Of a stretch of DNA of 64,000 bases, positions 16,585-34,683 are shown one piece after another (position 1 is the first letter of the stretch; the number at the start of each line of letters is the position of its first letter). Source of the DNA: Aquipuribacter nitratireducens (GTDB taxonomy: Bacteria > Actinomycetota > Actinomycetes > Actinomycetales > JBBAYJ01). Below the pieces are notes generated by a model that did no database searches, was not told the origin of the DNA, and was given only the letters and a program-made list of their open reading frames with translations. The position numbers and the translations under genes are program-made. The DNA is taken from assembly GCF_037860835.1 (NCBI RefSeq), contig NZ_JBBEOG010000003.1:248001-312000 (forward strand), read 5' to 3'.

Positions 16585-18396
16585 ATGTGCGGCATCAGCG
16601 GCGAGATCACCTTCGACTCCTCGACCGCCGACGTGGCGGCCGTGGCCCGCATGACCGACGTCATGACGCCCCGCGGTCCCGACGGCGCCGGGGTGTGGTC
16701 CCAGGGCCGCGTCGCGTTCGGCCACCGTCGGCTCAAGATCATCGACCTGTCGGAGTGCGGGGCGCAGCCGATGGTCGACAACGACCTCGGTCTCGCCGCG
16801 GTCTTCAACGGCATGGTCTACAACTACCGCGAGCTGCGGGCCGAGCTCGAGGGCCTCGGCCACCGCTTCTTCTCGACCTCCGACACCGAGGTCGTCCTCA
16901 AGGCGTACGCCGAGTGGGGCCTGTCGTGGGTCGACCGCCTCCTCGGCATGTTCGCCATCGTCATCCACGAGCGGGACACCGGCCGGGTCGTCGTCGCCCG
17001 GGACCGGCTCGGCATCAAGCCGCTCTACCTCTCCCGCGGCACCGGCGCCCGCAACCGGCTGCGCTTCGCCTCGACCGTCCCGGCGCTGCTCGCGGGCGGG
17101 GACGTGGACACGAGCATCGACCCCGTCGCGCTCCACCACTACCTGTCGTGGCACGCCGTCGTCCCGGCCCCGCACACCATCCTGAACGGCGTCCGCAAGA
17201 TGCCGCCGGCGACCGTCCGCGTGTACGAGCCGGACGGCAGCCACACCGACACCCGGTACTGGACGCCGGACTACACCCGGCGCGACGAGCACGCCGGCTG
17301 GGACTTCGACGACTGGACCGACGCCACCATCGAGGCGCTGCGGACCGCCGTGCGCCGACGCATGGTCGCCGACGTCCCCGTCGGCGTCCTGCTGTCCGGT
17401 GGCGTCGACTCCAGCCTGGTCGTCGGGCTGCTCGCCGAGCAGGGGCAGGCGCACCTCGCGACCTTCAGCATCGGCTTCGACGCCGTCGCCGGCCGGGAGG
17501 GCGACGAGTTCCGCTACTCCGACGTCGTCGCCGAGCGCTTCGACACCAACCACCACCGCATCCGGGTCGGCTCCGACGAGCTCGCCGGCAGCCTCGAGCA
17601 CGCGATCATGAACATGAGCGAGCCGATGGTGAGCCACGACGTCGTCGCCTTCGACCTGCTGAGCCGCGAGGTGTCCCGCCACATCAAGGTCGTCCAGTCC
17701 GGCCAGGGCGCCGACGAGGTCTTCGCCGGCTACCACTGGTACCCGCCGCTGCAGGGCCTCCGCGTCGAGGACGCCCCCGAGGCCTACGCGAAGGCGTTCT
17801 TCGACCGCGACCACGCCGCGATGGGCAAGGTCGTGACGCCCGCCGTCTACGAGGCGATGGGCGGGGCCGGCGCCGACGGGCCCTCGTTCTCCTACGTCCG
17901 CGACCACCTCACCCAGGGCCGGGCCGACACCGCCGTCGACGCCGCCCTGCGGCTCGACACCGAGGTCATGCTCGTCGACGACCCCGTCAAGCGCGTCGAC
18001 AACATGACGATGGCGTGGGGGCTGGAGGCCCGCGTGCCCTTCCTCGACCACGAGCTCGTCGAGCTCGCGGCCGCCTGTCCGCCGGAGCACAAGCTCGCCG
18101 ACGGCGGCAAGGGCGTGCTCAAGGCGGCGGCACGTCGCGTCGTGCCCCGCGAGGTCATCGACCGGCCGAAGGGGTACTTCCCCGTCCCCGCGATCACGCA
18201 CCTGCAGGGCAAGGTCCTCGACGTGGTCCGCGACGCCCTCCACGACCCGGCCGCGCGGCGGCGGGGGCTGTTCCGCGACGACTACGTCGACCAGCTCATG
18301 GCCGACCCGAACGCCGAGCTCACGCCGCTGCGGGGCAACAAGCTGTGGCAGCTCGGTCTCCTCGAGTGGTGGCTGCAGGCGCACGGGGTGGGGTGA
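16585..18396 (+). CDS. asnO: N-acetylglutaminylglutamine amidotransferase (asparagine synthase-like)
   Basis: A 603-residue class II glutamine amidotransferase/ATP pyrophosphatase fusion. It begins MCGISGE with the N-terminal nucleophile Cys2, and carries the synthase P-loop SGGVDSS at residues 271-277 and the SGQGADEVFAGYHWY segment. In the NAGGN pathway it converts the dipeptide acid N-acetylglutaminylglutamine to its terminal amide, an osmoprotectant known from Pseudomonas and Sinorhizobium. The assignment over ordinary AsnB rests on the adjacent genes, which form the known three-gene set, and on motifs such as YHWYPPLQG. It is followed by ngg after 7 bp. Confidence 0.88.
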   Translation: MCGISGEITFDSSTADVAAVARMTDVMTPRGPDGAGVWSQGRVAFGHRRLKIIDLSECGAQPMVDNDLGLAAVFNGMVYNYRELRAELEGLGHRFFSTSDTEVVLKAYAEWGLSWVDRLLGMFAIVIHERDTGRVVVARDRLGIKPLYLSRGTGARNRLRFASTVPALLAGGDVDTSIDPVALHHYLSWHAVVPAPHTILNGVRKMPPATVRVYEPDGSHTDTRYWTPDYTRRDEHAGWDFDDWTDATIEALRTAVRRRMVADVPVGVLLSGGVDSSLVVGLLAEQGQAHLATFSIGFDAVAGREGDEFRYSDVVAERFDTNHHRIRVGSDELAGSLEHAIMNMSEPMVSHDVVAFDLLSREVSRHIKVVQSGQGADEVFAGYHWYPPLQGLRVEDAPEAYAKAFFDRDHAAMGKVVTPAVYEAMGGAGADGPSFSYVRDHLTQGRADTAVDAALRLDTEVMLVDDPVKRVDNMTMAWGLEARVPFLDHELVELAAACPPEHKLADGGKGVLKAAARRVVPREVIDRPKGYFPVPAITHLQGKVLDVVRDALHDPAARRRGLFRDDYVDQLMADPNAELTPLRGNKLWQLGLLEWWLQAHGVG

Positions 18397-18403
18397 GCGC
18401 ACG

Positions 18404-20185
18404 ATGAGCAGCCGTCGTCGACCCCGGGTCGCCGGGCTGCGCGGCCGTCCGGGGATCACGTCCCAGCCGTGGAGCCCCGTCCCGGAGCACCTGCGACGGG
18501 ACATGCAGCGCGACGTGCTCGTCGACATGGGATGGGGCCGGCTCGTGTTCGGCCAGACGTTCCACGACCTCACGGGCATCCTCGACGTGCTGCGCAGCGA
18601 GGAGACCGGCGAGCGGGACATCTGCATCTACCCGCCGGACCCGCAGGTGCTCGTCGGGCTCGCTCCGACCGAGCTGTTCATCGACCCCAGCTACACCCTG
18701 CGGCTGCCGCTGCACCGCTACCGGCGGCAGACCACCCCGCCGCGCGGTCTCCTCGTGCGGACGGTCGGGGCGCGCGAGGAGCTGCTGGAGGCCAACCGGA
18801 TCTGCGCGAGCGTCGGCATGGTGACCGGTGACGTCGACGTCCTGTGGGCGAACCAGCGCACCCGCACGTTCACGTACCTCGTCGCGCAGGACACGACGAC
18901 GGGCGAGATCGTCGGCACGGTGACGGGGGTCGACCACGTCCTCGCGTTCGACGACCCCGACGGCGGCAGCAGCCTGTGGGCGCTCGCCGTCGACCCGCAG
19001 TCCCGCATCCCCGGGGTCGGCGAGGCCCTCACCCGCACGCTCGCCCAGCGCTACCAGGCCCGCGGCCGCTCGTGGATGGACCTGTCGGTCCTCGCGAGCA
19101 ACACCTCCGCCCTCGCCCTGTACGAGAAGCTCGGATTCGTGCGGACCGCGTCGGTCTGCGTGAAACGGAAGAACCCGATCAACGAGCCGTTGTTCGCTCC
19201 TCGGCCCGACAGCATCGACGACCTCAACCCCTACGCCCGGATCATCGCCGAGGAGGCGCTGCGGCGCGGGATCCGCGTCGAGGTGACGGACGGGCGCTGG
19301 GGCGAGATGCGTCTCACCCACGGCGGCCGGCAGGTCCTCACGCGCGAGTCCCTGTCGGAGCTGACGAGTGCGGTCGCCATGAGCCGCTGCGACGACAAGC
19401 GCGTGACGCGCCGGCTCCTGCAGCGGGCGGGCGTGCCCGTCGCACGAGGGCACGAGGTCGTGGCCGGGGCGGTCGGCGAGGCGGAGGAGGCCTTCCTGCG
19501 CGAGATGGGCGACGTCGTCGTCAAGCCCGCGCGCGGGGAGCAGGGCAAGGGCATCACCGTCGGGGTGTCCGGCGTCGAGGAGCTGCGCGAGGCCGTCGCG
19601 GCCGCCCACGCCCTGTGCCCCGACGTGCTCCTGGAGGAGCTCGTCCCCGGTGAGGACCTGCGGGTCCTCGTCATCGACGACGAGGTCGTCGCCGCTGCGG
19701 TCCGTCGGCCCGCGACGGTCGTGGGCAACGGGCGGGACACGATCGAGACGCTGGTCGCGGCGCAGTCCCGCCGCCGGGAGCGTGCGACGGGCGGCGAGTC
19801 GAGCATCCCGCTCGACGCCACCACCGAGGCGGTCGTCCGGGCGGCCGGGCACGCGATGGACGACGTCCTGCCGCGCGGGGAGCACCTGCAGGTGCGCCGC
19901 ACGGCCAACCTCCATACCGGCGGCACGATCGAGGACTGCACCGACGACCTCTCCCCCGCCGTGCGGGACGCCGCCCTGCGCAGCGCGCGGGTCATCGGCA
20001 TCCCCGTGACGGGCGTCGACTTCCTCGTGCCCGACGTGGGCGCCGACGACGGGTTCGTGTTCGTCGAGGCGAACGAGCGTCCCGGGCTGGCGAACCACGA
20101 GCCGCGGCCGACCGCGCAGCGCTTCGTCGACCTGCTCTTCCCCGGGACCGCGCAGCCCGGCAGGTCTGCGACGATGCCGGGGTGA
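18404..20185 (+). CDS. ngg: N-acetylglutaminylglutamine synthetase (GNAT/ATP-grasp fusion)
   Basis: A 593-residue bifunctional enzyme. The region from about 95 to 250 is a GNAT acetyltransferase (WALAVDPQSRIPGVGEALTRTL and ASNTSALALYEKLGFVRT) and the region from about 310 to 585 is an ATP-grasp ligase (VVVKPARGEQGKGITVGV, VFVEANERPGLANHEP). Together they would acetylate glutamine and ligate a second glutamine to give N-acetylglutaminylglutamine. The gene starts 7 bp after asnO and its stop overlaps the next start by 4 bp, so all three are one unit. Confidence 0.88.
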   Translation: MSSRRRPRVAGLRGRPGITSQPWSPVPEHLRRDMQRDVLVDMGWGRLVFGQTFHDLTGILDVLRSEETGERDICIYPPDPQVLVGLAPTELFIDPSYTLRLPLHRYRRQTTPPRGLLVRTVGAREELLEANRICASVGMVTGDVDVLWANQRTRTFTYLVAQDTTTGEIVGTVTGVDHVLAFDDPDGGSSLWALAVDPQSRIPGVGEALTRTLAQRYQARGRSWMDLSVLASNTSALALYEKLGFVRTASVCVKRKNPINEPLFAPRPDSIDDLNPYARIIAEEALRRGIRVEVTDGRWGEMRLTHGGRQVLTRESLSELTSAVAMSRCDDKRVTRRLLQRAGVPVARGHEVVAGAVGEAEEAFLREMGDVVVKPARGEQGKGITVGVSGVEELREAVAAAHALCPDVLLEELVPGEDLRVLVIDDEVVAAAVRRPATVVGNGRDTIETLVAAQSRRRERATGGESSIPLDATTEAVVRAAGHAMDDVLPRGEHLQVRRTANLHTGGTIEDCTDDLSPAVRDAALRSARVIGIPVTGVDFLVPDVGADDGFVFVEANERPGLANHEPRPTAQRFVDLLFPGTAQPGRSATMPG

Positions 20186-21417
20186 GTCGTCCCACCGCCG
20201 CGCTGCGCCGTGTCAGCGCCACCGCCACGAAGCTGCCCGTCGACACCGCGTACCTGCGCGACGTCATGCTCGAGCTGCTGTGCATCCCGAGCCCCTCGGG
20301 GCGCACCGACGCCGTCATGCAGCGCGTCGGGGACCTGCTCGCGGAGATGGGCGTCGAGCTCGACATCACCCGGCGCGGGGTGCTGCGGGCGACGCTGCCG
20401 GGACGCCGGAAGGACGTGAACCGGGCGGTCGTCGTCCACGCCGACACGATCGGGACGATGGTGAAGCGGCTCAAGGAGAACGGCCGCCTCGAGGTCATGC
20501 AGGTCGGCACCCACTCGGCGCGCTTCGCCGAGGGCGCGCACGTCACGATCCTCACCGACGAGCCCGACCGGACGTACACCGGCACCGTGCTCCCCCTGAA
20601 GTCGAGCGGCCACACGTACGGCGACGAGATCGACACCTTCGCCATCGGGTGGGACGAGGTCGAGGTCCGCATCGACGCCCCCGTCTACGACGTGCAGGGC
20701 CTGCTCGCGCTCGGCATCCAGGTCGGTGACTTCGTCGCGCTCGACGCCGCCCCCCAGATCACCCCGCTCGGCTACGTGAAGTCCCGCCACCTCGACGACA
20801 AGGCCGGCCTGGCGGCGTGCCTCGCCGCGCTCAAGGCGGTGACCGACGCCGGGATCACCCCGCCGGTGACCGCACGGCTGCTCGTCACCATCGGCGAGGA
20901 GGTCGGGCACGGTGCCACGCACGGCTTCGACTCCGGCACCGCGGAGATCGTCGCGGTGGACAACGGCGTCGTCGCGCCCGGGCAGCAGTCGCGGGAGGAG
21001 TCGGTGAGCGTCGGGATGATGGACTCGACCGGTCCCCACGACTTCCACCTCACGCGGCGCCTCCTCGCCCTCGCCGACGAGCACGGCATCCCCGCGGTCC
21101 GGGACGTCTACCGGGTGTACCGCTCCGACGCCGCCCCGGCCGTCGAGTCCGGGGTCGAGGCGCGCACGGCGCTGCTCGGCTTCGGGCTCGACTCCTCCCA
21201 CGGGCACGAGCGCACCCACCTCGACGGTCTCCAGCACCTCGCGGAGCTGCTCGCGGTCTACCTGCAGGGCGACCTCACGTTCGCCGACTGGGACGTGCAC
21301 GAGAGCGGCGCCCTCGACGACTTCCCCTCGACGGCGGTGCAGCCGACGCCGGTCGAGCCGACGGAGGTCGACCGGCGGCTGAGCGAGGCGGAGCGCCGGC
21401 AGGCCGGCCAGGCCTGA
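20182..21417 (+). CDS. osmoprotectant NAGGN system M42 family peptidase
   Basis: A 411-residue zinc aminopeptidase-like protein. Metal and catalytic residues are visible in VVHADTIG (His, Asp), RHLDDKAG (bridging Asp), GEEVGHG (Glu-Glu), and SSHGHERTH near the C-terminus (His). M42 peptidases are accessory members of NAGGN loci and may recycle the dipeptide when osmotic stress ends; that role is inferred. The GTG at 20182 overlaps the ngg stop by 4 bp. Confidence 0.87.
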   Translation: MSRPTAALRRVSATATKLPVDTAYLRDVMLELLCIPSPSGRTDAVMQRVGDLLAEMGVELDITRRGVLRATLPGRRKDVNRAVVVHADTIGTMVKRLKENGRLEVMQVGTHSARFAEGAHVTILTDEPDRTYTGTVLPLKSSGHTYGDEIDTFAIGWDEVEVRIDAPVYDVQGLLALGIQVGDFVALDAAPQITPLGYVKSRHLDDKAGLAACLAALKAVTDAGITPPVTARLLVTIGEEVGHGATHGFDSGTAEIVAVDNGVVAPGQQSREESVSVGMMDSTGPHDFHLTRRLLALADEHGIPAVRDVYRVYRSDAAPAVESGVEARTALLGFGLDSSHGHERTHLDGLQHLAELLAVYLQGDLTFADWDVHESGALDDFPSTAVQPTPVEPTEVDRRLSEAERRQAGQA

Positions 21418-23095: not shown

Positions 23096-25621
23096 TCACG
23101 CGGCGGTCTCGAGCCGGCCGTAGGTGGTCGTCCGCTGGGCCACGGGTCGCCCGATCCCGGCCGCGATGGCCGTCAGCTCCTCGACGGTCTTCGCCGAGCC
23201 GTGCGCGGAGCCGGCCATCCGGCTGATCGTCTCCTCCATGAGCGTGCCGCCGAGGTCGTCCGCTCCCCCGGTGAGCATGGCCCGGGTGCCGTCGACGCCG
23301 AGCTTCACCCACGACGTCTGGACGTGGTCGACGCGACCGTGGAGGAGCAGCCGGGCGACGGCGTGGACGGCGCGGTTGTCGCGCAGCGTCGGCCCCGGCC
23401 GGGCGATCCCGGCGAGGTAGATCGGCGAGCTGTGGTGGACGAACGGCAGCGGCACGAACTCCGTGAACCCGCCCGTGCGGTCCTGCACGCCCGCGAGGGT
23501 GCGCAGGTGCGCGACCCAGTGGCGGGGGTGGTCGACGTGGCCGTACATCATCGTCGAGCTGCTCGGGATGCCGAGGGAGTGGGCGGTCTCGACGACCTCG
23601 AGCCACGCGCTCGTCGGCAGCTTGCCCTTGGTGAGCACCCACCGGACGTCGTCGTCGAGGATCTCCGCCGCGGTCCCGGGGATGGAGCCGAGCCCCGCGT
23701 CCTTCACCTCCTCCAGCCACTCGCGGACGCTCGCGCCCGCCCGGGAGGCCGCAGACACCACCTCCATGGGGCTGAACGCGTGGACGTGCATCCCGGGCGC
23801 CGCGGCGAGGACCGCCCGGACGATGTCGGCGTACGCGCCCGGGCCGAGGTCCGGGCTGATGCCGGACTGGATGCACACCTCGGTGGCACCGAGCGCCTGC
23901 GCCTCGGCCGCGCGGCGCCCCACCTCCTCCAGCGACAGCGTGTAGGCGTCGGGGTCGGTGCGGCGCTGGGCGAACGCGCAGAAGCGGCAGCCGACGTAGC
24001 AGACGTTCGTCACGTTGATGTTCCGGTTGACGACGTACGTGACGGCCTCCCCGACCGTCGACCGGCGGACGTCGTCCGCGAGGCGGGCGAGGGCGTCGAG
24101 CTCGGCGCCGTCGCTCGTCAGGAGGGCGAGGTACTGCTCGTCCGCGAGGCCCGCGGGGTCGTCGGCCGCCCGCCGCAGCGCCTCGGCGGCGTCGCCCGTG
24201 CCCCACACGGCCGGAGCGTGGACGCGCTCCCCCACCGCCTGCCAGTCGCCGTAGACGACGTCGAAGTCGCCGCGGCGGTCACCGGTACGCCCCTCGGTGT
24301 CGACCGCCGTGTGGAGGTCGGCGCGCCCGCTCGTCACGAGGCCGCCGTCCGGCTCCTGCCACGGCCGGCCGACGGCGCGGACGCCCTCGCGGGCCAGCCC
24401 CGTGACAGGGTCGGCGAGCGCCTCGACGTGGGGGCGGACCCGCTCGTCGAGCCACGGGGCGCCGTCGTGCAGCGCCGCCCTCACGTAGGCGGGGTGCACC
24501 GTGAGCCGCGGGCGCAGCGCGAACCCGGCCTCGCCGGTCCAGCGGGCGAGGTCGTCGAGCTGCGGCCACGGCCGCTCGGGGTTGACGTGGTCCGGCGTCA
24601 CCGGGGACACCCCGCCCCAGTCGTCGACCCCGGCGCGCACGAGCTCGGCGAGGTCGGCGGGGTCGGACAGGTTCGGCGGTGCCTGCAGCGACACGGTCGG
24701 GCCGAGGAGCAGCCGGGCCACCGTGACGGTCGCGAGGTACGACTCCCGGTCGAGGTCGGGCACCGCCCGCATGGCCGTCCGCTCCTTCGCCCGGAAGTTC
24801 TGGACGATGACCTCCTGGGTCGCGCCGTACTCGCGCGCGACGCGGCGGATCGCGAGCAGCGCGTCGACCCGCTCCGCGGCCGTCTCCCCGATCCCGAGGA
24901 GCACGCCCGTGGTGAACGGGACAGCCAGACGACCCGCGTCCTCCAGGACGCGCAGCCGCACCGCGGGGTCCTTGTCGGGGCTGCCGAAGTGCGGCCCGCC
25001 GGGCTCGGACCACAGCCGCGTGGCGGTCGTCTCGAGCATCATCCCCATCGACGGCGCGACCGGCTTGAGCCGCTGGATCTCCTGCCAGCTCATGACGCCG
25101 GGGTTGAGGTGCGGCAGCAGGCCCGTCTCCTCGAGGACGGCGACGGCACACGCGCGGACGTAGGCGAGCGTCGAGTCGTACCCGCGCTCGTCGAGCCAGC
25201 GCCGTGCCTGGGGCCAGCGCTCCTCGGGGCGGTCGCCGAGGGTGAAGAGGGCCTCGAGGCACCCCGCGGCCGCGCCGTCCCGTGCGATCCGGAGTACCTC
25301 CTCCATCTCGAGGTACTCCGACGGCACGCGGTGCGGCACGGTGACGAACGTGCAGTAGTGGCAGCGGTCCCGGCACAGGCGCGTGAGGGGGATGAAGACC
25401 TTCGGGGAGTACGTCACCGTGCTCGGCCGACCGGCGCGCGCCATGGCCTCGTCGCGCACCCGGCCCGCCGGCTCGGCCAGCGCCGTCAGCGCGTCGCCGC
25501 GCGCGTGGAGGAGGGCGGTCGCCTCGGTGGCGTCGAGGGCCTTGCCGTCGACGGCACGGCGTACCGCGCGCTCGACCTCACGAGGGGTCGGGGGGACGGA
25601 CGGGACGGCGACGGACGTCAC
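23096..25621 (-). CDS. fbiC: F420 biosynthesis protein FbiC (FO synthase, CofG-CofH fusion)
   Basis: An 841-residue double radical-SAM enzyme that makes 7,8-didemethyl-8-hydroxy-5-deazariboflavin (FO), the chromophore of F420, from tyrosine and 5-amino-6-ribitylaminouracil. The CofG half has CRDRCHYC (Cys83, 87, 90) and the CofH half CYVGCRFC (Cys541, 545, 548), both binding 4Fe-4S clusters. The fusion form is the actinobacterial one. The GTG start follows TAGCCT (25628-25633, minus strand) by 6 nt. The ribityl precursor comes from the rib operon further along. Confidence 0.96.
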
Positions 25622-25797
25622 CGGAGCAGGCTACGCGCGCGGTCCGCCGGTGCACCGGCGGCCGGCCGGCGTCATGACCCAGGAGCGAGCCACTGCTCAC
25701 GCGGAGTGAGCCGAGCCGCACGACCGCCCTCCACCATTGCCCTGCGTCACCAGGCACGAGCACACTGGTCGCCTGCTTCTCCGTGGTGGAGGTGGGC
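25622..25797. other. divergent intergenic region between fbiC and the signalling operon
   Basis: The left end holds the fbiC -10 (TAGCCT at 25628-25633, minus strand). A GC-rich partial inverted repeat, CCGCCGGTGCACCGGCGG at 25650-25667, follows. On the plus strand GGAGG at 25788-25792 is the Shine-Dalgarno for the kinase start at 25798. I see no small gene here. Confidence 0.5.
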
Positions 25798-28053
25798 GTG
25801 GTCGACGACCGTGACGCCGCGTCCACCGCCGCGCGCCCGGACACGTCGTTGGGGGACCGCCTCCTGGACGCCGAGGCACGCCTCGAGGCGACCGACGAGG
25901 TCCTCCGCGCGCTCGGCGGGCGTGGGGCGACCGCGGACGCGGTGTTCGACGTCGTCGTCGACAGGGCGCTCGCGCTGGCCCGCGCCGACACGGTCCAGCT
26001 GTGGCTCCTCGACGGACGCGTCTTCCGGCTGTACCGCAGCGCGGGGCGGGCGGGCCCCGAGCTCACCCGGCAGCTGACCCGACGCCCGGTCGAGCTGTCG
26101 TCGGGCAGTGTCCTGGGTCGTGCGGCGCTCGGGCGCCGCACGGTGCAGGTCGTCGACGTGCTGGCGGACCCGGAGTACGCCAGGCAGGACCTGCAGCGCC
26201 TCGCCGGGTTCCGCACGCTCATGGCGGCGCCCATGATCGTGGGCGACGAGGTCGTGGGTGTCGTGTCCGCCTGGCGGCTCGATCGCCCCCGGGCCTTCGA
26301 CGAGACGGAGACGGACCTCCTCACCGCCTTCGCCGACCAGGCCGCGGTCGCCGTCCGGCAGGTCCGGCTGCTCGCCGACCTCGAGCAGCGACGGCTCGAG
26401 CTGGCCCGCAAGGTCGACCAGCTGGAGACCCTCGGGGAGGTCGGGCAGCTCGTGTCGTCGAGCCTCGACCTCGACGAGGTGCTCGCGACGGTGCTCCACC
26501 ACGCCGTGCGGCTCGCCGGCTGCGCGGGCGGTTCGATCATGCAGTACGACGGGTCGAGCGACGCCTTCTCCGTCCGTGCCGCGGTCGGGACCGACGAGGC
26601 GCTGCTGCGGCGGCTGCAGTCCACCGTCATCCAGCGCCGCAGCACGCTCGTCGGGCGCGCGGCCCACGACGGCCGTCCCGTGGAGGTGCCCGACCTGCGG
26701 GCGGTCGAGGAACCGCTCGACCCGCACCTGCTCGCCCTGCACGACCACGGCTGGCGGTCGGTGCTCGCGGTCCCGATGGTGCGCCGGGACGAGCTGGTGG
26801 GCGCCCTCGTCGTGCGGCGGCGGGAGCCCGGCGCCTTCTCGGCGGAGGTGCGGGAGCTCGTCGAGACCTTCGCGGGCCAGTCGACCCTCGCGATCGTCAA
26901 CGCGCGCCTCTTCGGCGCCCTCGCCGTCAAGTCCGCGGAGCTCGAGGTCGCGAGCCGCCACAAGTCCGAGTTCCTCGCGAGCATGTCCCACGAGCTGCGG
27001 ACGCCGCTCAACGCGGTCATCGGGTTCTCCGAGGTCCTCCTCGACCGGCTCTTCGGCGACCTGACCGAGCGGCAGGAGGAGTACCTCCACGACATCCACT
27101 CCTCCGGACAGCACCTCCTCGAGCTGCTCAACGAGATCCTCGACCTGTCGAGGGTCGAGGCCGGGCAGATGGAGATGGACTACGCGGTGTTCGCCGTGCG
27201 CGACACCGTCGAGAGCGCCATGCAGCTCGTCCGCTCGAGGGCGGACGCCCACGGGATCAGCCTCACGCTGACGGTCGCCGACGGCGTGGACCGGCTCGAG
27301 GCCGACGAGCTGCGGGTCAAGCAGGTGCTCGTCAACCTGCTCTCGAACGCCGTGAAGTTCACCGGCGACGGCGGGCACGTCGAGGTCGGGGTGTCGCTGG
27401 ACGACGACGACCTCGTCGTCGCGGTGCGCGACGACGGCATCGGGATCGCGCCGGAGGACCGTGACCGCATCTTCGAGTCGTTCCAGCAGGGCCGGCGCGG
27501 GGCGCCCAAGGAGGAGGGCACGGGCCTCGGGCTCACGCTGAGCCGTCGCATCGTCGAGCTGCTCGGCGGACGGCTGTCCCTGCACTCCGAGGTCGGTGTC
27601 GGCAGCACGTTCACGGTCGCCCTCCCCCTGCGGCGTCCCGGGTCGCGCGACGCCACCGGCCCCCACGCCCTGTCGGTCTCCGGGGACGGCGAGCGGGTCG
27701 TGGTGGTGGTCGACGACGACCGGGCGTCGCAGGAGCTCATCGGCGCCTACCTCCGCGGGACGGGTGCGCTCGTGCTGCGTGCCGAGGACGGGGCCGCGGG
27801 ACTGGACGCCGTCCGGCGCGCGAGGCCGCAGGCGGTGGTCCTCGACATCCGGCTGCCGGTCCTCGACGGATGGCAGGTCATCGCGGCGCTCAAGGCCGAC
27901 CCGACGACCCGGGACATCCCCGTCGTGGTGGCGTCGGTCGTCGACGAGCGCGCCCGCGGGCTCGCGATGGGCGCCGCCGCGTACCTCGTCAAGCCGCTGC
28001 ACCGCGAGCCGTTCCTCCGCGCGCTCGAGCCCGTGCTCGCGGGGGCGTCGTGA
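25798..28053 (+). CDS. hybrid sensor histidine kinase: GAF-GAF-HisKA-HATPase-receiver
   Basis: A 751-residue soluble hybrid kinase. Two GAF domains (about 43-190 and 215-370) are followed by a dimerisation/phosphoacceptor domain with SHELRTPLNAVIGFSEV (His398), an ATPase domain with NLLSNAVKFT, DDGIGI and GTGLGLTLS motifs, and a C-terminal receiver with VVVDDD, the phospho-Asp in AVVLDIRLP and Lys in YLVKPL. No membrane segment is seen, so the signal is cytoplasmic and may be a small ligand or redox state. The GTG at 25798 is preferred because GGAGG precedes it by 5 nt; GTGs at 25783-25792 are alternatives. It overlaps the next gene by 4 bp. Confidence 0.9.
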   Translation: MVDDRDAASTAARPDTSLGDRLLDAEARLEATDEVLRALGGRGATADAVFDVVVDRALALARADTVQLWLLDGRVFRLYRSAGRAGPELTRQLTRRPVELSSGSVLGRAALGRRTVQVVDVLADPEYARQDLQRLAGFRTLMAAPMIVGDEVVGVVSAWRLDRPRAFDETETDLLTAFADQAAVAVRQVRLLADLEQRRLELARKVDQLETLGEVGQLVSSSLDLDEVLATVLHHAVRLAGCAGGSIMQYDGSSDAFSVRAAVGTDEALLRRLQSTVIQRRSTLVGRAAHDGRPVEVPDLRAVEEPLDPHLLALHDHGWRSVLAVPMVRRDELVGALVVRRREPGAFSAEVRELVETFAGQSTLAIVNARLFGALAVKSAELEVASRHKSEFLASMSHELRTPLNAVIGFSEVLLDRLFGDLTERQEEYLHDIHSSGQHLLELLNEILDLSRVEAGQMEMDYAVFAVRDTVESAMQLVRSRADAHGISLTLTVADGVDRLEADELRVKQVLVNLLSNAVKFTGDGGHVEVGVSLDDDDLVVAVRDDGIGIAPEDRDRIFESFQQGRRGAPKEEGTGLGLTLSRRIVELLGGRLSLHSEVGVGSTFTVALPLRRPGSRDATGPHALSVSGDGERVVVVVDDDRASQELIGAYLRGTGALVLRAEDGAAGLDAVRRARPQAVVLDIRLPVLDGWQVIAALKADPTTRDIPVVVASVVDERARGLAMGAAAYLVKPLHREPFLRALEPVLAGAS

Positions 28054-28430
28054 CGCGCGGCCGGGTCCTCGTCGTCGAGGACAACCGGCTCAACCGCAAG
28101 CTCGTCCGGGACGTGCTCGTCCATTCCGGCTTCGACGTCGTCGAGGCGGCGACGGGCGAGGACGGAGTGCGCGTGTGCCGGGACACGCACCCCGACGTCG
28201 TGCTCATGGACCTGCAGCTGCCCGGCATCGACGGGACCGAGGCGCTGCGCCTCCTCAGGACCCAGCCGGGCGGTGACGTCCCGGTCGTCGCCGTCACGGC
28301 GTCGGTCATGGCGAGCGACCGCGCGGCGGTGGCGGCCGCGGGGTTCGACGGCTTCCTCGAGAAGCCTCTCGACGTGCGGCGGCTGCCGGAGCAGGTCGGG
28401 GACCTCGTCGCGCACGGGCGGCTGACGTGA
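28050..28430 (+). CDS. single-domain response regulator (CheY/DivK-like)
   Basis: A 126-residue stand-alone receiver. It has the acidic pocket VVEDN, phospho-Asp54 in VVLMDLQLPG, Thr in AVTAS and Lys105 in FLEKPL, and no output domain. A lone receiver between a hybrid kinase and a receiver-cyclase suggests a phosphorelay intermediate or a phosphate sink. Start and stop overlap the neighbouring genes by 4 bp each. Confidence 0.9.
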   Translation: MTRGRVLVVEDNRLNRKLVRDVLVHSGFDVVEAATGEDGVRVCRDTHPDVVLMDLQLPGIDGTEALRLLRTQPGGDVPVVAVTASVMASDRAAVAAAGFDGFLEKPLDVRRLPEQVGDLVAHGRLT

Positions 28431-29578
28431 GCGCCGCGCCGGCCCAGCAGGAGGAGCCCGTCGTCGTCCTCGCCGTCGACGACCAGCTGCCGAACCTGCG
28501 TCTGCTCGACGCCGTCCTCACGCCCCGCGGCTACGAGGTGCTGTGCGCGCCGTCGGGGCGGGACTGCCTCGCCCTCCTCGCGCACCGCGAGGTGGACGTC
28601 GTCCTCCTCGACGTCCTCATGCCGGGCATGGACGGCTACGAGACGTGCCGGCGGCTGCGGGCGGACGAACGGACGGCGTTCCTCCCGGTCGTCATGCTGA
28701 CGGCGAGCGGGCAGCAGCAGCGGGTCGAGGCGCTCCGGGCGGGCGCCGACGACTTCGTGACGAAGCCGTTCGACACGCACGAGCTGCTCGCCCGGATCGC
28801 CTCCCTCGCGCGGGTGAGGCGGTACCACGTCACCGTCGCCCGCCAGGCGGAGGAGCTGGCGAGGCAGGCCGAGGAGCTCGCGTGCTGGAACCGCGAGCTC
28901 GAGGGCCGCGTGCGCACCCAGGTGGCGGAGCTGCAGCGCCTGCACCGGCTGCGCCGCTTCCTCGCCCCGCAGGTCGCGGAGCTCGTGCTCGAGGCGGGCG
29001 ACGAGGTGCTCGCGAGCCACCGACGGGAGATCGTCGTCGTCTTCTGCGACCTCCGGGGGTTCACGCCGTTCGCCGAGGCGAACGAGCCGGAGGAGGTCAT
29101 GGCCGTCCTCGCGTCCTACCACCGGGCCCTCGGGGAGCTCGTCCACGCGCACGGGGGGACGCTGGAGCGCTTCACCGGGGACGGGATCATGGTGTTCTTC
29201 GGCGACCCCGTGGAGCAGGACGACGCCGCCGCGCGGGCGCTCGCCATGGCGCTGGCCATGCGGGAGCGGGTGCGCGTCCTCGCGGCCGAGTGGGCGCGAC
29301 GCGGGCACGACCTCGCGCTCGGCGTCGGCATCGCCCAGGGCTACGCGACGCTCGGCCAGGTCGGCTTCGAGGGCCGTCAGGACTACGCCGCCATCGGGTC
29401 GGTGACGAACCTCGCGGCGCGCCTGTGCGGGGAGGCCGCGGCGTGGCAGGTGCTCGTGAGCCAGCGCGTCACCGCCGACGTCGACGGGCTCGCCCGCTTC
29501 GACCAGGTCGACGACGTCGTGCTCAAGGGCTTCCGGCAGCCGGTCCGGGTGTTCGAGGTGGTGGAGGTGTCGGGATGA
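28427..29578 (+). CDS. response regulator with class III nucleotide cyclase domain
   Basis: A 383-residue protein: receiver (about 12-130, phospho-Asp62 in VVLLDVLMPG, Lys113 in VTKPF), a heptad-rich linker (about 138-178, AEELARQAEELA) that is likely coiled coil, and a class III cyclase domain (about 200-383). Metal-binding Asp208 (FCDLRGFT) and Asp252 (FTGDG) and the transition-state pair Asn328/Arg332 are present. The purine-selecting Lys that normally precedes the GD motif is Arg248, while the partner Asp319 is kept, so ATP versus GTP use cannot be called. It would link phosphorelay input to a cyclic nucleotide. Confidence 0.88.
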   Translation: MSAAPAQQEEPVVVLAVDDQLPNLRLLDAVLTPRGYEVLCAPSGRDCLALLAHREVDVVLLDVLMPGMDGYETCRRLRADERTAFLPVVMLTASGQQQRVEALRAGADDFVTKPFDTHELLARIASLARVRRYHVTVARQAEELARQAEELACWNRELEGRVRTQVAELQRLHRLRRFLAPQVAELVLEAGDEVLASHRREIVVVFCDLRGFTPFAEANEPEEVMAVLASYHRALGELVHAHGGTLERFTGDGIMVFFGDPVEQDDAAARALAMALAMRERVRVLAAEWARRGHDLALGVGIAQGYATLGQVGFEGRQDYAAIGSVTNLAARLCGEAAAWQVLVSQRVTADVDGLARFDQVDDVVLKGFRQPVRVFEVVEVSG

Positions 29579-31131
29579 CGGTGCTCGAGCAGCTCGGCGA
29601 GGCAGAGCGCTACGAGCGCTACGACGCCCTGCAGGCGCGGATGGTCGACGTGTGGCGGGACATGCGGCAGGGCCACGGCGACGAGTCCGTCGTCGTCGTG
29701 CCGTCGGTGAGCGTCGACCGTTCCGGCACGCCGCCGCCGTCGGCGGTGCTCCAGGCCATGGAGGAGCGGTCGCTGTTCCTGCTGCTCCTGCTACGCCAGC
29801 CGCGCCTGCGGCTGGTCTACGTGACGTCGATGCCCATCCCGACGGCCGTCGTCGACTACTACCTCGGGCTGCTGCCCGGCGTCGTCCGCAGCCAGGCCCT
29901 GCCGAGGCTCACGATGATCGCCCTCGGGGACGCCTCCCCCCGGCCGCTGAGCGAGAAGCTCCTCGCGCGGCCGCGCGCGCTGCAGCGCGTCCGCGACGCG
30001 CTCCCGAACCCGGCCCGCAGCCACCTCGTCCCGTACAACACGACGTCGCTCGAACGCGACGTGGCGCTGTCCCTGGGGATCCCGGTCTACGGCGCCGACC
30101 CGCGCCTCCTGCCGTTCGGCACGAAGACCGGCTGCCGTCGCCTCTTCGAGGCGGTCGGTATCGCGTACCCCCTCGGGGAGGAGGCCGTCCACGACGTCGA
30201 CGAGGTCGTCGCCGCGCTCGTCCGCATGCGCGCGCGCCGCCCGGGCCTGCAGGAGGTCGTCGTCAAGCTCGACGACGGGGTCTCCGGCAGGGGCAACGCG
30301 CTCGTCGACCTCCGCGGTCTACCCCCGGCGGACGACGCGGACCTGCCGAGCGCGCTCCGGGAGCGGGTGCTCGGCATGCGCCTGGAGGCCCCCGGGCTCG
30401 CGCTCGAGGAGTACCTCGGCCAGCTCGCGGGCGGCGGGATCGTCGAGGAGCGCATCGTGGGACGCGACCTGCTGAGCCCGAGCGTGCAGCTGCGGGTGCT
30501 GCCGGGGGGCGAGGTCGAGCTGCTGTCGACGCACGACCAGATGCTCGGCGGCGAGAGCGGGCAGAGCTACCTCGGCTGCGTGTTCCCGGCCGACCCGGCG
30601 TACGCGCGCGCCATCAGCGAACCGGCCCTGCGGGTGGCCGAGCGCCTCTCGGCGCTCGGGGTGCTCGGCCGGTTCGCCGTCGACTTCGTCGTCGTCCGCG
30701 ACGGCGAGGGCGAGCCGTGGCAGCCCTACGCGATCGAGCTCAACCTGCGAAAGGGCGGCACGACCCACCCGTTCCTCACCCTGCAGTACCTCACCGACGG
30801 CACGTACGACTGGCGCGACGCGTCGTACCGCACGCACAGTGGCGCCCCGAAGCACCTCGTCGCGACCGACCACCTCGAGTCGCCGCTGCTGCGCGCCCTG
30901 ACGGTCGACGACCTCCTCGACGTCGTCACCGACCAGGGACTGCACTTCGACCAGTCGACGAGGACCGGCGTCGTCCTCCACATGCTGACGTGCGTCACCG
31001 AGGTGGGCCGGGTCGGCGTCACCGCGGTAGGCGACACCCCTGAGCAGGCGCAGGCGCTGTTCCGACGGACGGAGGAGGCGCTCCTCGCGGAGGCGGCGGA
31101 GGCCGCTCGCGCCGTGCCACTGCCCGGCTGA
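29575..31131 (+). CDS. ATP-grasp peptide ligase, PGM1-related
   Basis: A 518-residue ATP-grasp protein. A pre-ATP-grasp domain (about 70-180; LLLLLRQPRLRLVYVTSMPIP, VPYNTTSLERDVALSLGIPVYG) precedes the ATP-binding lobes with VVVKLDDGVSGRGNALVDL, ALEEYLG, and the Mg-binding IELNLRKGGTTHPF. This architecture is like PGM1, the pheganomycin peptide ligase of Streptomyces, and related carboxylate-amine ligases. No obvious precursor peptide or biosynthetic partner is next to it. Its start overlaps the cyclase stop (ATGA), so it is expressed with the signalling proteins. The product is unknown. Confidence 0.82.
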   Translation: MTVLEQLGEAERYERYDALQARMVDVWRDMRQGHGDESVVVVPSVSVDRSGTPPPSAVLQAMEERSLFLLLLLRQPRLRLVYVTSMPIPTAVVDYYLGLLPGVVRSQALPRLTMIALGDASPRPLSEKLLARPRALQRVRDALPNPARSHLVPYNTTSLERDVALSLGIPVYGADPRLLPFGTKTGCRRLFEAVGIAYPLGEEAVHDVDEVVAALVRMRARRPGLQEVVVKLDDGVSGRGNALVDLRGLPPADDADLPSALRERVLGMRLEAPGLALEEYLGQLAGGGIVEERIVGRDLLSPSVQLRVLPGGEVELLSTHDQMLGGESGQSYLGCVFPADPAYARAISEPALRVAERLSALGVLGRFAVDFVVVRDGEGEPWQPYAIELNLRKGGTTHPFLTLQYLTDGTYDWRDASYRTHSGAPKHLVATDHLESPLLRALTVDDLLDVVTDQGLHFDQSTRTGVVLHMLTCVTEVGRVGVTAVGDTPEQAQALFRRTEEALLAEAAEAARAVPLPG

Positions 31132-31137
31132 GGTGGC

Positions 31138-31650
31138 TCAGCCAGCGGCGAACCCCACGCTCCCCCGGCTCCCCCGCCGTGCCGTCCGCAGTCCCAGAAC
31201 GGTGCTGACGGCAGCCTCGGCGGCCTCGGCGCCCTTGTCCTCCCGCGACCCGGGCAGGCCGGCGCGGTCGAGCGCCTGCTCGACGGTGTCGCACGTGAGG
31301 AGCCCGAAGCCGACGGGCGTCGCGGTGCGGACGGCGACGTCGGTGAGGCCGGACGTCGCCGCCTGGCACACGTAGTCGAAGTGCGGCGTGCCGCCGCGCA
31401 CCACGACCCCGAGGGCGACGACGGCGTCGACGTCCGGCGCGAGGGTCGCCGCGGCTACGGGCAGCTCGAACGAGCCGGCGATGCGGACCTCGACGACGTC
31501 GGTGACGCCCGCGTGGGCGAGCGCCCGACGGGCACCCGCGAGCAGGCCGCCCATCACCTCCTCGTGCCAGCTCGCCGCCACGACGGCGACCCGCAGGCCC
31601 GCCCCCGCGCCCTCGGTCACGATGGTGCTCGGTGCGCCGTCCCCGCTCAT
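31138..31650 (-). CDS. ribH: 6,7-dimethyl-8-ribityllumazine synthase
   Basis: A 170-residue enzyme that condenses 5-amino-6-ribitylaminouracil with 3,4-dihydroxy-2-butanone 4-phosphate. It has [37 protein letters not shown] (with the active-site His) and the [17 protein letters not shown] helix. It is the last gene of the rib operon; its ATG overlaps the ribBA stop by 4 bp. It converges with the ATP-grasp gene with only 6 bp between the stops. Confidence 0.95.
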
Positions 31651-32999
31651 GCGGTGCCTCCCTGGCTGCTCGTGCTGCTGCTGCTCCCGGTGCCGAGGTC
31701 GTCGAGGGCGCCGGGCAGGACGTGACCCATCCGGTCGCGCTTGACGGCGAGGTAGCCGACGTTCTCCGGCCGCGTGCCGACGACGAGCGGCACGCGCTCG
31801 ACCACGTCGATGCCCCCGTCGAGCAGCGCCTGGACCTTGTCGGTGTTGTTCGTGAGGAGCCGCACCTCCGACACCCCGAGGTCGGAGAGGATCGCCGCGG
31901 CCGCGCCGTACTCGCGGGCGTCGGCGGGCAGGCCCTGCACCGTGTTGGCGTCGACGGTGTCGAGCCCCGCGTCCTGCAGCGAGTACGCCGCGACCTTCGC
32001 GGCGAGGCCGATGCCACGGCCCTCGTGGCCCCTCTCGTACACGACGACCCCGCCCTCGAGCGAGATGCGTGCGAGGGCGGCCTCGAGCTGCGGTCCGCAG
32101 TCGCAGCGCAGCGAGCCGAGTGCGTCGCCGGTCAGGCACTCGGAGTGCACCCGCACCAGCACGGCCCGCCGACCGGGGGTGTCGCCGGGACCGGCCGGGC
32201 CGGACGGACCGGACGCGGCGATCGCGAGGTGCTCGTGGCCGGTGAGCACGTCGCGGTAGGCGTGCACCCGGAAGACACCGGTGCGGGCCGGCAGGTCCGC
32301 CGAGGCGACGCGGCGCACCCGCGCCTGCTCCGGCGTCGGGACGGGGACGGGTGCGGCGGGGGCCTCCGACGGGGCGCCGCCACCGGCGCGGCGCCACGCC
32401 ACGAGGTCGGCGATGCTGCACACGACGAGCCCCTCGGAGCGGGCGAGCGCGAGGAGCTGGGGCAGGCGCAGCAGCTCGCCCTCGTCGTCGACGACCTCCC
32501 CGATGAGCCCGACGGGCGGCAGGCCTGCGGCGCGGCAGAGGTCGACAGCCGCCTCGGTGTGCCCGTTCCGCTCGAGCACCCCGCCCGCGCGTGCCCGCAG
32601 CGGCAGGACGTGCCCGGGCCGGACGAGGTCCCGCGGCCCGCTCGACGGGTCGGCGAGCACCCGCAGCGTCCGCGCCCGGTCGGTGGCGGAGATCCCGGTC
32701 CCCACGCCCTCGCGCGCGTCGACGCTCACCGTGTAGGCGGTGCGGAACGGGTCCTCGGTGTCCGGCCACATGAGGGGCAGCCCGAGCCGGTCGGCGACTT
32801 CCGGCGGCATCGGGGCGCACAGGTAGCCGCTCGTGTGCCGGACCGTCCACCCGACCCAGCGCGGGGTCGCGGCGGCGGCCGCCATCACGACGTCGCCCTC
32901 GTTCTCGCGGTCGGCGTCGTCGACGACGATCACCGGGCGGCCGGCGCGGATCTCGGCGACGGCGACGTCGATGCCCGCCAGACCTGCCGGGCCGTTCAC
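31647..32999 (-). CDS. ribBA: bifunctional 3,4-dihydroxy-2-butanone 4-phosphate synthase / GTP cyclohydrolase II
   Basis: A 450-residue fusion. Residues about 5-205 are RibB ([41 protein letters not shown]) and about 225-430 are RibA, with the zinc site in [15 protein letters not shown] and the catalytic [13 protein letters not shown] Pro/Ser-rich linker joins them. It supplies both branch substrates for riboflavin. The GTG at 32997-32999 overlaps the ribE stop by 4 bp. Confidence 0.95.
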
Positions 33000-33622
33000 G
33001 GCGTCACCTCCAGCGCCGCGAGCCGGGCTCGGACCTGGTCCTCGACCTGCTTCTCCACGTACTTCGCCAGCACGTCCACCTCCAGGTTGACGGGGTCGCC
33101 CACCGCGCGCAGACCGAGCGTCGTCGCGGCGAGCGTCGTGGGGATGAGGGACACCTCGAAGGCGTCGTCGAGCACCGCCGACACCGTGAGGGAGGTCCCG
33201 TCGACGGCGATCGACCCTTTCTCGACGACGTAGCGACGCAGCGGCTCGGGCAGCGCGACGCGGACGACCTCCCACCGCTCTCCCGGCTCGCGCGCGACGA
33301 CGTGCCCGACGCCGTCGACGTGCCCCTGCACCACGTGACCGCCGAGCCGCGCGTCGGCCCGCAGCGCCCGCTCGAGGTTGACCCGGCGGCCGGGTGCGAG
33401 CCCCGCCAGGGCGGTGCGGCGCAGCGTCTCGGCCATGACGTCGACGGTGAAGGAGCCCGCCTCGACGGCGACGACGGTGAGGCACACGCCGTCGACGGCG
33501 ATGGAGTCCCCGTGGTGGGCGTCGGACGTGACGAGCGGGCCGCGGACGGTGAGCCGTGCGGACTCCGCCCCCTGCTCGAGGGCCACGACCTCCCCCAGCT
33601 CCTCGACGATGCCGGTGAACAT
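32996..33622 (-). CDS. ribE: riboflavin synthase, alpha chain
   Basis: A 208-residue enzyme that dismutates two lumazine molecules into riboflavin. Two similar barrels are visible: [10 protein letters not shown] with GVCLTVV in the first and [12 protein letters not shown] with GTSLTVS in the second. The ATG shares one base with the ribD stop (TGATG), so translation is coupled. This gene is called ribC or ribE in different organisms. Confidence 0.95.
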
Positions 33623-34683
33623 CAGGCGCTCTCCTCCACGGGTGGTGGGACGGGTCGGGACACGACGACGACGTCGCCCTCGAGCCGGGCGACGTCGACG
33701 AGCTGCAGACGGGGTACGTCGGCGACGGTGCGGACGCCGAGGTCGCCGACCGCGGCGGGCCCGCTGCCGAGGACCGCGGGCGCGAGGTAGGTGACGACCT
33801 CGTCGACCACCCCGGCGCGCAGGAACGCGGCGGCCACGGTCGGTCCGCCCTCGACCCACACGTGGCGGACCTCCCGCTCCGCGAGCGCCGCGAGAGCGGC
33901 GGGGACGTCGCGGGTGCGCAGCTGGAGGCTCTCGGCGGCGTCGTCGAGCACGCGGGCGCCGGCCGGCAGGCCCCGCTCCCCCAGCACGACCCGCAGGGGC
34001 TGCCGCGCCAGCGGCTCGGTGGGCCGGGCGGGGTCCCGCGTCGTGAGCCACGGGTCGTCGACGATCGCGGTCCCCGTGCCGACGAGGACGGCGTCGGCCG
34101 TGGCCCGGCGACGGTGCACGTCGGCGCGGGCGGCGACACCGGTGAGCCAGCGGCTCGTGCCGTCGGCCGCGGCGACCCGGCCGTCGAGGGTCGCGGCCCA
34201 CTTGAGGGTGACGAAGGGCCTGCCCGTGCTGACGGCGTGCCGCCAGTACCGGGTGAGGGCGAGGGCCTCGTCGCGGTGGGGCCCGGCGACGACCTCGACC
34301 CCGGCGGCGCGCAGGGTGCGCGCGCCCCCGGCGGCCCGGGGGTCGGGGTCCTCGACGGCGACGACGACGCGTCGGACGCCGGCGGCGAGCAGCGCGCGGC
34401 TGCACGGCCCGGTCCGGCCCCGGTGGTTGCAGGGCTCGAGCGTGACGACCGCGGTGGCCCCGTGCGTGTCGCGGCCCTGGCGCTGCGCGTCGGCGAGGGC
34501 GGCGACCTCGGCGTGCGCCGTCCCGGCGCCCTCGTGGTGGCCCTCCCCCAGGACCCGGCCGTCGGCGTCGAGGAGCACGCACCCGACGCGGGGGTTGGGG
34601 CCGTGCGCGGGACCGTGCGCGGCGAGCGCGAGGGCGCGCCGCATCGCCTCGTCCTCGTGCGCCGTCGTGGCCCCGGTGGTCAT
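33622..34683 (-). CDS. ribD: bifunctional riboflavin deaminase/reductase RibD
   Basis: A 353-residue enzyme with an N-terminal deaminase (HAEVAAL and PCNHRGRTGPC, the zinc-binding His-Glu and Cys pairs) and a C-terminal reductase (FVTLKWAATLDGRVAAADG and WVEGGPTVAAAFLRAG). It makes the ribitylaminouracil phosphate precursor. It is the first gene behind the FMN riboswitch; the ATG at 34681-34683 has only a weak GC-AGG motif upstream, consistent with control at translation. Confidence 0.95.
   Translation of the reverse strand: MTTGATTAHEDEAMRRALALAAHGPAHGPNPRVGCVLLDADGRVLGEGHHEGAGTAHAEVAALADAQRQGRDTHGATAVVTLEPCNHRGRTGPCSRALLAAGVRRVVVAVEDPDPRAAGGARTLRAAGVEVVAGPHRDEALALTRYWRHAVSTGRPFVTLKWAATLDGRVAAADGTSRWLTGVAARADVHRRRATADAVLVGTGTAIVDDPWLTTRDPARPTEPLARQPLRVVLGERGLPAGARVLDDAAESLQLRTRDVPAALAALAEREVRHVWVEGGPTVAAAFLRAGVVDEVVTYLAPAVLGSGPAAVGDLGVRTVADVPRLQLVDVARLEGDVVVVSRPVPPPVEESA

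Follow-up and report, generated by a model that had tools for sequence, protein, structure and literature searches.

A conserved four-gene cassette joining a hybrid histidine kinase, two receivers, a class III nucleotide cyclase and a BesA/PGM1-like ATP-grasp ligase

A 64,000-nucleotide stretch of the Aquipuribacter nitratireducens genome (contig NZ_JBBEOG010000003.1, positions 248,001 to 312,000; hereafter the window, numbered from its first letter) carries a cassette of four genes encoding, in order, a dual-GAF hybrid histidine kinase, a lone receiver, a receiver fused to a class III nucleotide cyclase and an ATP-grasp ligase related to BesA and PGM1 (Table 1). The cassette is real, conserved and built from known parts, and is undescribed in the open-access literature that we searched, where no description of such a cassette was found; subscription papers lay outside this coverage. 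Our preferred reading, to which we give a probability of about 0.6, is that of a sensory cassette in which a signal perceived by the GAF domains would pass via the kinase to the receiver-cyclase and, as a cyclic nucleotide, to a CRP-type regulator, with an amide ligase translated alongside.

The four genes lie on the forward strand and every joint between them is a 4-bp overlap, as the initial annotation of the window had it and as the sequence and the list of open reading frames (ORFs) confirm. The start of the kinase is uncertain: the longest ORF begins with the GTG at 25783, and 25798 is likewise in frame. Pfam bears out the proposed domain make-up, with two GAF stretches, HisKA, HATPase_c and a C-terminal Response_reg domain in the kinase, and Response_reg, Response_reg plus Guanylate_cyc, and ATP-grasp_IQCH plus PGM1_C in the three genes that follow.

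Table 1. The cassette and its boundaries in the window
Feature	Position	Strand	Basis or remark
Dual-GAF hybrid histidine kinase, C-terminal receiver	25783..28053	+	Pfam, ORF list
Lone receiver, Asp54 the phospho-acceptor	28050..28430	+	GTG start 28050; 4-bp overlap with kinase gene
Receiver (Asp62) plus class III nucleotide cyclase	28427..29578	+	GTG start 28427; 4-bp overlap with lone-receiver gene
BesA/PGM1-like ATP-grasp ligase, 518 aa	29575..31131	+	ATG start 29575; 4-bp overlap with cyclase gene
Radical SAM/CofH_C gene, upstream cassette boundary	23096-25621	-	Pfam
Riboflavin genes, downstream cassette boundary	31138-34683	-	Pfam domains

Conservation was assessed from two sets of searches (L, G and f numbers are our handles for loci, genomes and families). 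The ligase was sought in 59 relatives, 394 genomes of the class and 149 genomes of family f18, with matches in 2 (window included), 28 and 29 genomes, respectively. For the receiver-cyclase the searches covered 296 phylum genomes (E ≤ 1e-80), 394 of the class (E ≤ 1e-70) and 27 of another class, with matches in 5, 10 and 2. The locus set comprises the ligase loci from the relatives, class, f18 and named-genome searches, plus L124; genome G019 occurs in it twice (L006, L044) and is counted once, and five ligase matches without a short locus are left out of the cassette counts, two of which, covered by the wide loci L111 and L113, have no cyclase. Where the ligase is at least 54% identical, a receiver-cyclase gene lies directly upstream on the same strand in 29 of 30 non-redundant loci (window included), at a projected gap of -1 to 161 bases, and these 30 loci span six families (f1, f18, f27, f38, f45 and f71). 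Below 54% identity the corresponding figure is 0/39, with five of the 39 offering under 1200 bases upstream, and it is this difference that makes the cassette more than chance. The sole exception among the 30 is L064/L090 (genome G471), where the ligase adjoins an alanine dehydrogenase gene. Kinase and lone receiver stand in the same order in 20 of the 23 loci read as wide loci, and in the seven others, covered with flanks of 1.5 kb, the lone receiver is present upstream.

The tight spacing is also widely preserved. In a survey of 22 loci (window included), with genes called by our own script, the joint is exactly -4 bp at 16/19 kinase/receiver, 14/19 receiver/cyclase and 16/21 cyclase/ligase junctions; the others range from -8 to +131 bp, and odd gaps of 50 bp (L080) and 131 bp (L089) may be gene-start miscalls by the script. 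Genes outside the cassette vary between families, though not always within one. Within the class sample, the seven genomes with a cyclase at least 61% identical are the same seven that have a ligase of about 60% identity or more. A midpoint-rooted tree of 53 ligases places the 23 cassette ligases in one clade (local support 0.93), and in a tree of 25 cyclases the ligase-linked ones cluster with weak support (0.56). The order thus recurs outside close relatives, as had been proposed for a conserved coupled unit and, because they are kept together across several bacterial families, the four genes very probably act as one working unit.

The signalling residues of the first two proteins are intact. 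The phospho-acceptor His of the kinase (in MSHELRTP) and the Asp of its receiver (in VLDIRLP) are both invariant in 19/19 aligned kinases, as are D11, D54 and K105 in 19/19 lone receivers. The phosphorelay suggested initially is not shown in the strict sense: none of the four cassette proteins of the window, and neither of two longer related kinases, has an Hpt domain by Pfam, the rest of the genome not having been searched for one. The GAF region has no well-conserved Cys and a single well-conserved His, in GAF2 (95%). Two f18 cassette kinases, L044 and L081, carry a second C-terminal receiver, each having two Response_reg stretches.

In the window cyclase the key positions are the metal-binding Asp208/Asp252, the transition-state residues Asn328/Arg332 and the base-reading pair Arg248/Ala321. 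The first four are invariant in 25/25 aligned cyclases (21/21 ligase-linked and 4/4 ligase-free), an alignment that omits one fragment, L077. The first base-reading position is R in 7, H in 13 and Q in 1 of the 21 ligase-linked cyclases, never K or E, and F in all four ligase-free ones; the second is Ala in 20/21 ligase-linked cyclases (Thr in L124) and 3/4 ligase-free ones. The solved cyclases aligned for comparison have K/T (CyaB) and E/G (Cya2) at this pair. Adenylyl cyclases are reported to use a Lys/Asp pair, and guanylyl cyclases Glu together with varied residues that include Ala (PMC4215837). The Glu of the guanylyl cyclase pocket is absent in 21/21 and, by its residues, the cassette pocket is of neither the standard adenylyl nor the standard guanylyl type. 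Non-standard base-reading pairs can still use ATP, as mycobacterial examples illustrate, so the pocket does not prove another product, which we leave open.

Two known systems invite comparison with the cyclase. In DivK–PleD type pairs a lone receiver is followed by a receiver–messenger enzyme; the cassette likewise has a lone receiver ahead of a receiver-cyclase, whose receiver matches PleD best, but it has a class III cyclase in place of GGDEF, and a kinase and a ligase in the operon. Membership of the Pycsar systems was considered and rejected. The PADLOC PycC models do match the cyclase (2e-21) and PycC shares the class III cyclase domain, but any class III cyclase should give such matches; the cassette cyclase differs in being receiver-fused and kinase-linked, no PycTM or PycTIR effector is present among the four cassette genes, and the ligase has no PADLOC match. 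An attempt to place the published PycC pocket residues (PMC11224242) on the cassette cyclase, one position at a time, did not succeed.

Further clues to the fate of a cyclic nucleotide come from family f18, where a CRP-type gene lies downstream of the ligase on the same strand in 19 of 23 cassette-ligase loci; the wide loci of L045, L046, L052 and L064 contain no such gene. The one member scanned with Pfam matches cNMP_binding (2.4e-18) and HTH_Crp_2 (5.6e-17), and the cyclic nucleotide monophosphate (cNMP) cassette G[ED]...RR[ST] is kept in 12/12 aligned regulators, its Glu/Asp, Arg and Ser/Thr presumably playing their usual roles in cNMP binding. A palindrome of CRP-like form, near TGTGC-N5-GYGACA, lies 30–64 bases before the called CRP start in 12/12 wide loci. 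Since the scoring matrix was trained on these 12 sites, their scores (12.7–18.6) are partly circular. Mononucleotide shuffles of seven loci gave 26 matches scoring at least 11 and one of at least 15 in 588,015 bases, compared with 27 of at least 11 in 327,095 bases of real cassette-region loci, training sites included; at 15 or more, the 12 loci yield 11 of the 12 training sites and nothing else. Sites of at least 15 also turn up away from the cassette, in two of the six non-cassette loci scored (94,288 bases in all; L172, 15.0; L176, 17.7), which counts against the CRP site. The window has a single weak match (11.3 at 18076), away from the cassette. The regulators thus resemble the CRP/FNR family in domains and palindrome, although they stand beside the cassette in f18 only and not in the window. 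The initial proposal that the receiver-cyclase turns phosphorylation into a cyclic nucleotide gains from this neighbouring candidate receptor and needs amending for the non-standard pocket.

In the same 19 loci a protein of about 62 residues, with the motif HHHP...WxCxCGGAS...ALxHSxxIA, is encoded on the opposite strand between the ligase and CRP genes (for example L084:7766-7960). One member of this small CxC family was scanned and has no Pfam or NCBIfam match. It was considered as a precursor peptide for the ligase and set aside: six other small-CxC loci (L171–L176) have no match to cassette proteins, and of the 149 f18 genomes 48 have a family member but 29 any homologue of the ligase. We regard it as a separate small protein and not as a proven substrate. 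In L171, L172, L174 and L175 it lies beside or within a block comprising, by the domains of L171, an alanine dehydrogenase gene, an ATP-dependent DNA ligase gene and a MarR-type gene. At L090:7986-12373 the one cassette-clade ligase that lacks the triad is transcribed divergently from an alanine dehydrogenase gene (by Pfam), which is followed by a gene for a 511-aa protein; this resembles the block flanked by small CxC proteins elsewhere and might mean alanine-related chemistry or rearrangement.

The ligase belongs, by its domains and residues, to the PGM1-like/IQCH-like ATP-grasp superfamily. Pfam scores are 49.6 bits for PGM1_C (2.7e-13; cut-off 22.5) and 78.3 bits for ATP-grasp_IQCH (cut-off 27). 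The ATP-binding residues, whose loss had been named as an argument against a conserved system, are kept: K231, E291, D370, E388, N390 and R392, which we take to form the ATP/Mg active site, are invariant in 23/23 cassette-clade ligases and nearly so in 30 others. BesA (PDB 8yi6), an L-propargylglycine–L-glutamate ligase, is the only PDB chain matched by sequence at E ≤ 0.1 (phmmer; E 2e-32) and the sole NCBIfam match, at 122 bits against an equivalog cut-off of 750. The AlphaFold model (predicted local distance difference test score 85.4, from 10 input sequences) also has BesA as its best fold match, with template modelling (TM) scores of 0.76/0.85 at about 28% identity. It matches 3wvq with TM scores of 0.62/0.74 at about 20% identity, and 3wvr and another Streptomyces peptide ligase also match; we take 3wvq and 3wvr to be PGM1. 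The nearest solved relative is thus BesA, and the description of the ligase as PGM1-type holds at the level of the fold and the PGM1_C domain. From PGM1 of pheganomycin synthesis it differs in sequence, there being no phmmer match at E ≤ 0.1, and in that no precursor gene was seen beside the window ligase, a negative that does not extend to small ORFs at a greater distance. The initial remark that the ligase has no precursor peptide holds for its immediate surroundings in the window, whilst in f18 a small conserved ORF does lie beside it, whose relatives elsewhere are unlinked to the cassette. That the ligase product would be new found no support. We know of no assigned function in this ligase family beyond those of BesA and PGM1.

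The neighbours of other ligase homologues are varied. Distant homologues adjoin, on the opposite strand, a gene for an M20 peptidase (L103) or an M28 peptidase (L010), which fits amide chemistry, if weakly. In L010, L011, L014 and L015 (metagenome-assembled genomes (MAGs) of Chitinophagaceae, and Lacibacter) the homologue sits in a conserved block, with a LiaF-like membrane protein and the M28 peptidase as its neighbours in L010. In one genus a further gene lies 3' of the cassette ligase, encoding 204 aa with a 4-bp overlap in L076 (10539-11153) and 203 aa in L078. The L076 protein, the one of the two that was scanned, has no match in Pfam (E ≤ 1) or NCBIfam; from a YGTNLS motif the gene might encode a gamma-glutamylcyclotransferase-like protein, which would suit gamma-glutamyl chemistry, an unproven assignment of which we make no use. 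Adenylate cyclases are noted in the loci of one graspetide-type ATP-grasp branch, and PGM1 is called distantly related, in a paper that describes these as complex maturation loci for ribosomally synthesised and post-translationally modified peptides, not as kinase–receiver–receiver-cyclase–ligase cassettes (PMC8939145).

From family knowledge, residues and linkage, we infer the following scheme. The cassette would probably be cytoplasmic. A ligand or state sensed by the two GAF domains would set autophosphorylation of the hybrid kinase, from which phosphate would pass both to the lone receiver and to the cyclase's own receiver, the latter gating the class III cyclase. The cyclic nucleotide would be read by the CRP-type regulator, next door in f18 and presumably encoded elsewhere in the window genome. 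The ligase, made from the same coupled message, would join amino-acid-type substrates by an amide bond at the expense of ATP, so that synthesis of a small peptide or of a gamma-glutamyl-type compound would keep pace with that of the signalling proteins; this product may be part of the response or a ligand returned to the sensor.

Several observations weigh against this scheme. Four more distant genomes (G654 and G674, both of another class, and G108 and G109) have a kinase–receiver–cyclase triad that is not followed by a ligase, and among the wide loci that do not show the full order L090 has no triad, L075 and L077 stopping at a contig edge. The Lys of the standard adenylyl cyclase pocket is replaced in 21/21 ligase-linked cyclases, by a rule that concerns sequence rather than activity. 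No CRP gene adjoins the cassette in the window, and of the five cNMP-binding matches in its genome the best reach 34% and 32% identity with the f18 regulators. When palindromes were counted without a prior motif, shuffled sequences came close to the real ones and no clear excess emerged (CRP upstreams at best 9/12 versus 6–7; kinase upstreams 9/19 versus 8–10), so that the candidate CRP site rests on its CRP-like form and fixed position. In 12 loci the roughly 400 bases ahead of the kinase gene contain no CRP-like site scoring at least 11, which is mild evidence that CRP does not target the ligase and leaves the earlier suggestion that its expression or activity follows the signal unsupported.

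The ligase-free triads bear on the history of the cassette. Their cyclases are 50–57% identical; G109, like G070, whose cyclase match (49%) was not resolved by the gene caller, yielded no ligase when the class was searched, and the ligase match of G108 (42% identity, one internal stop) is unlinked to its triad. Because the triad exists without it, the ligase was probably a later recruit to an older module. The ligase family is itself wide: Bacteroidota and one Aminicenantes MAG are among the matches listed in the named-genome search, which gave at least 9 ligase loci, with a cyclase in none of those listed. A plasmid search found 6 ligase records (28–48% identity) on replicons of Streptomyces, Nonomuraea, Gemmatirosa and Robbsia, and a phage search found no ligase homologue. 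Ahead of two of the ligase-free triads lie genes for a small SnoaL-like protein and for an additional lone receiver (L125:10422-13095 and L137:3988-6627).

Three other explanations were weighed. It is possible, if doubtful, that the ligase makes the very signal sensed by the GAF domains, forming a self-monitoring circuit from metabolite through kinase and cNMP to CRP with the ligase on the sensor side rather than as an output. The ligase does stay with the triad in six wide loci that show no such CRP gene (L074, L076, L078, L079, L080 and L085), and the lack of a CRP-like site ahead of the operon makes it unlike a CRP target, but the GAF region offers no well-conserved Cys and one well-conserved His, no ligand is known, and relatives have the triad with no ligase at all. 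We consider it unlikely that the linkage is one of convenience, an ordinary two-component/cyclase module having gained the ligase by chance and the two hitch-hiking in transferred operons with no link in function. Patchy presence speaks for this: the ligase is missing from the two sister genomes in the genus of the window, 28/394 class genomes have any homologue, and triad and ligase are each found alone; against it, the order is kept in 29/30 loci at about 55–65% identity, with overlaps mostly preserved while other neighbours change between families.

A cyclase turned scaffold, regulating the ligase by contact and making no second messenger, seems very improbable: the R, H or Q at the ATP/GTP-specifying position would suit it, whereas the invariant metal Asp pair, Asn and Arg, in ligase-linked and ligase-free cyclases alike, and the CRP gene adjacent in 19 loci argue against it. 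The sensory cassette with a CRP-type reader is the reading that we prefer.

The surroundings of the cassette in the window are as given in Table 1. What we take to be ribH, one of the riboflavin genes, follows on the opposite strand 6 bases past the ligase end. An M42 glutamyl aminopeptidase-like gene lies about 4 kb upstream of the cassette (20182-21417).

The cassette joins three things that are normally separate, namely two-component signalling, a class III cyclase whose base pocket is non-standard and a ligase of the BesA/PGM1 fold; what is new here are the CRP partner in f18, the cyclase pocket without the ATP-specifying Lys and the triad without ligase. The unit is small enough for reconstitution, and with the CRP gene and its candidate site in f18 both nucleotide and regulon are open to direct test. 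One can go further and suppose, improbable as we judge it, that the phosphorylation-gated cyclase makes a nucleotide other than cyclic AMP or cyclic GMP (a cyclic pyrimidine mononucleotide, for example) that serves physiological signalling and not phage defence, that a dedicated CRP reads it and that the product of the coupled amide ligase either acts on the GAF sensor as its input or becomes attached to a pathway partner. If true, this would be a second-messenger system with its own metabolite maker built in.

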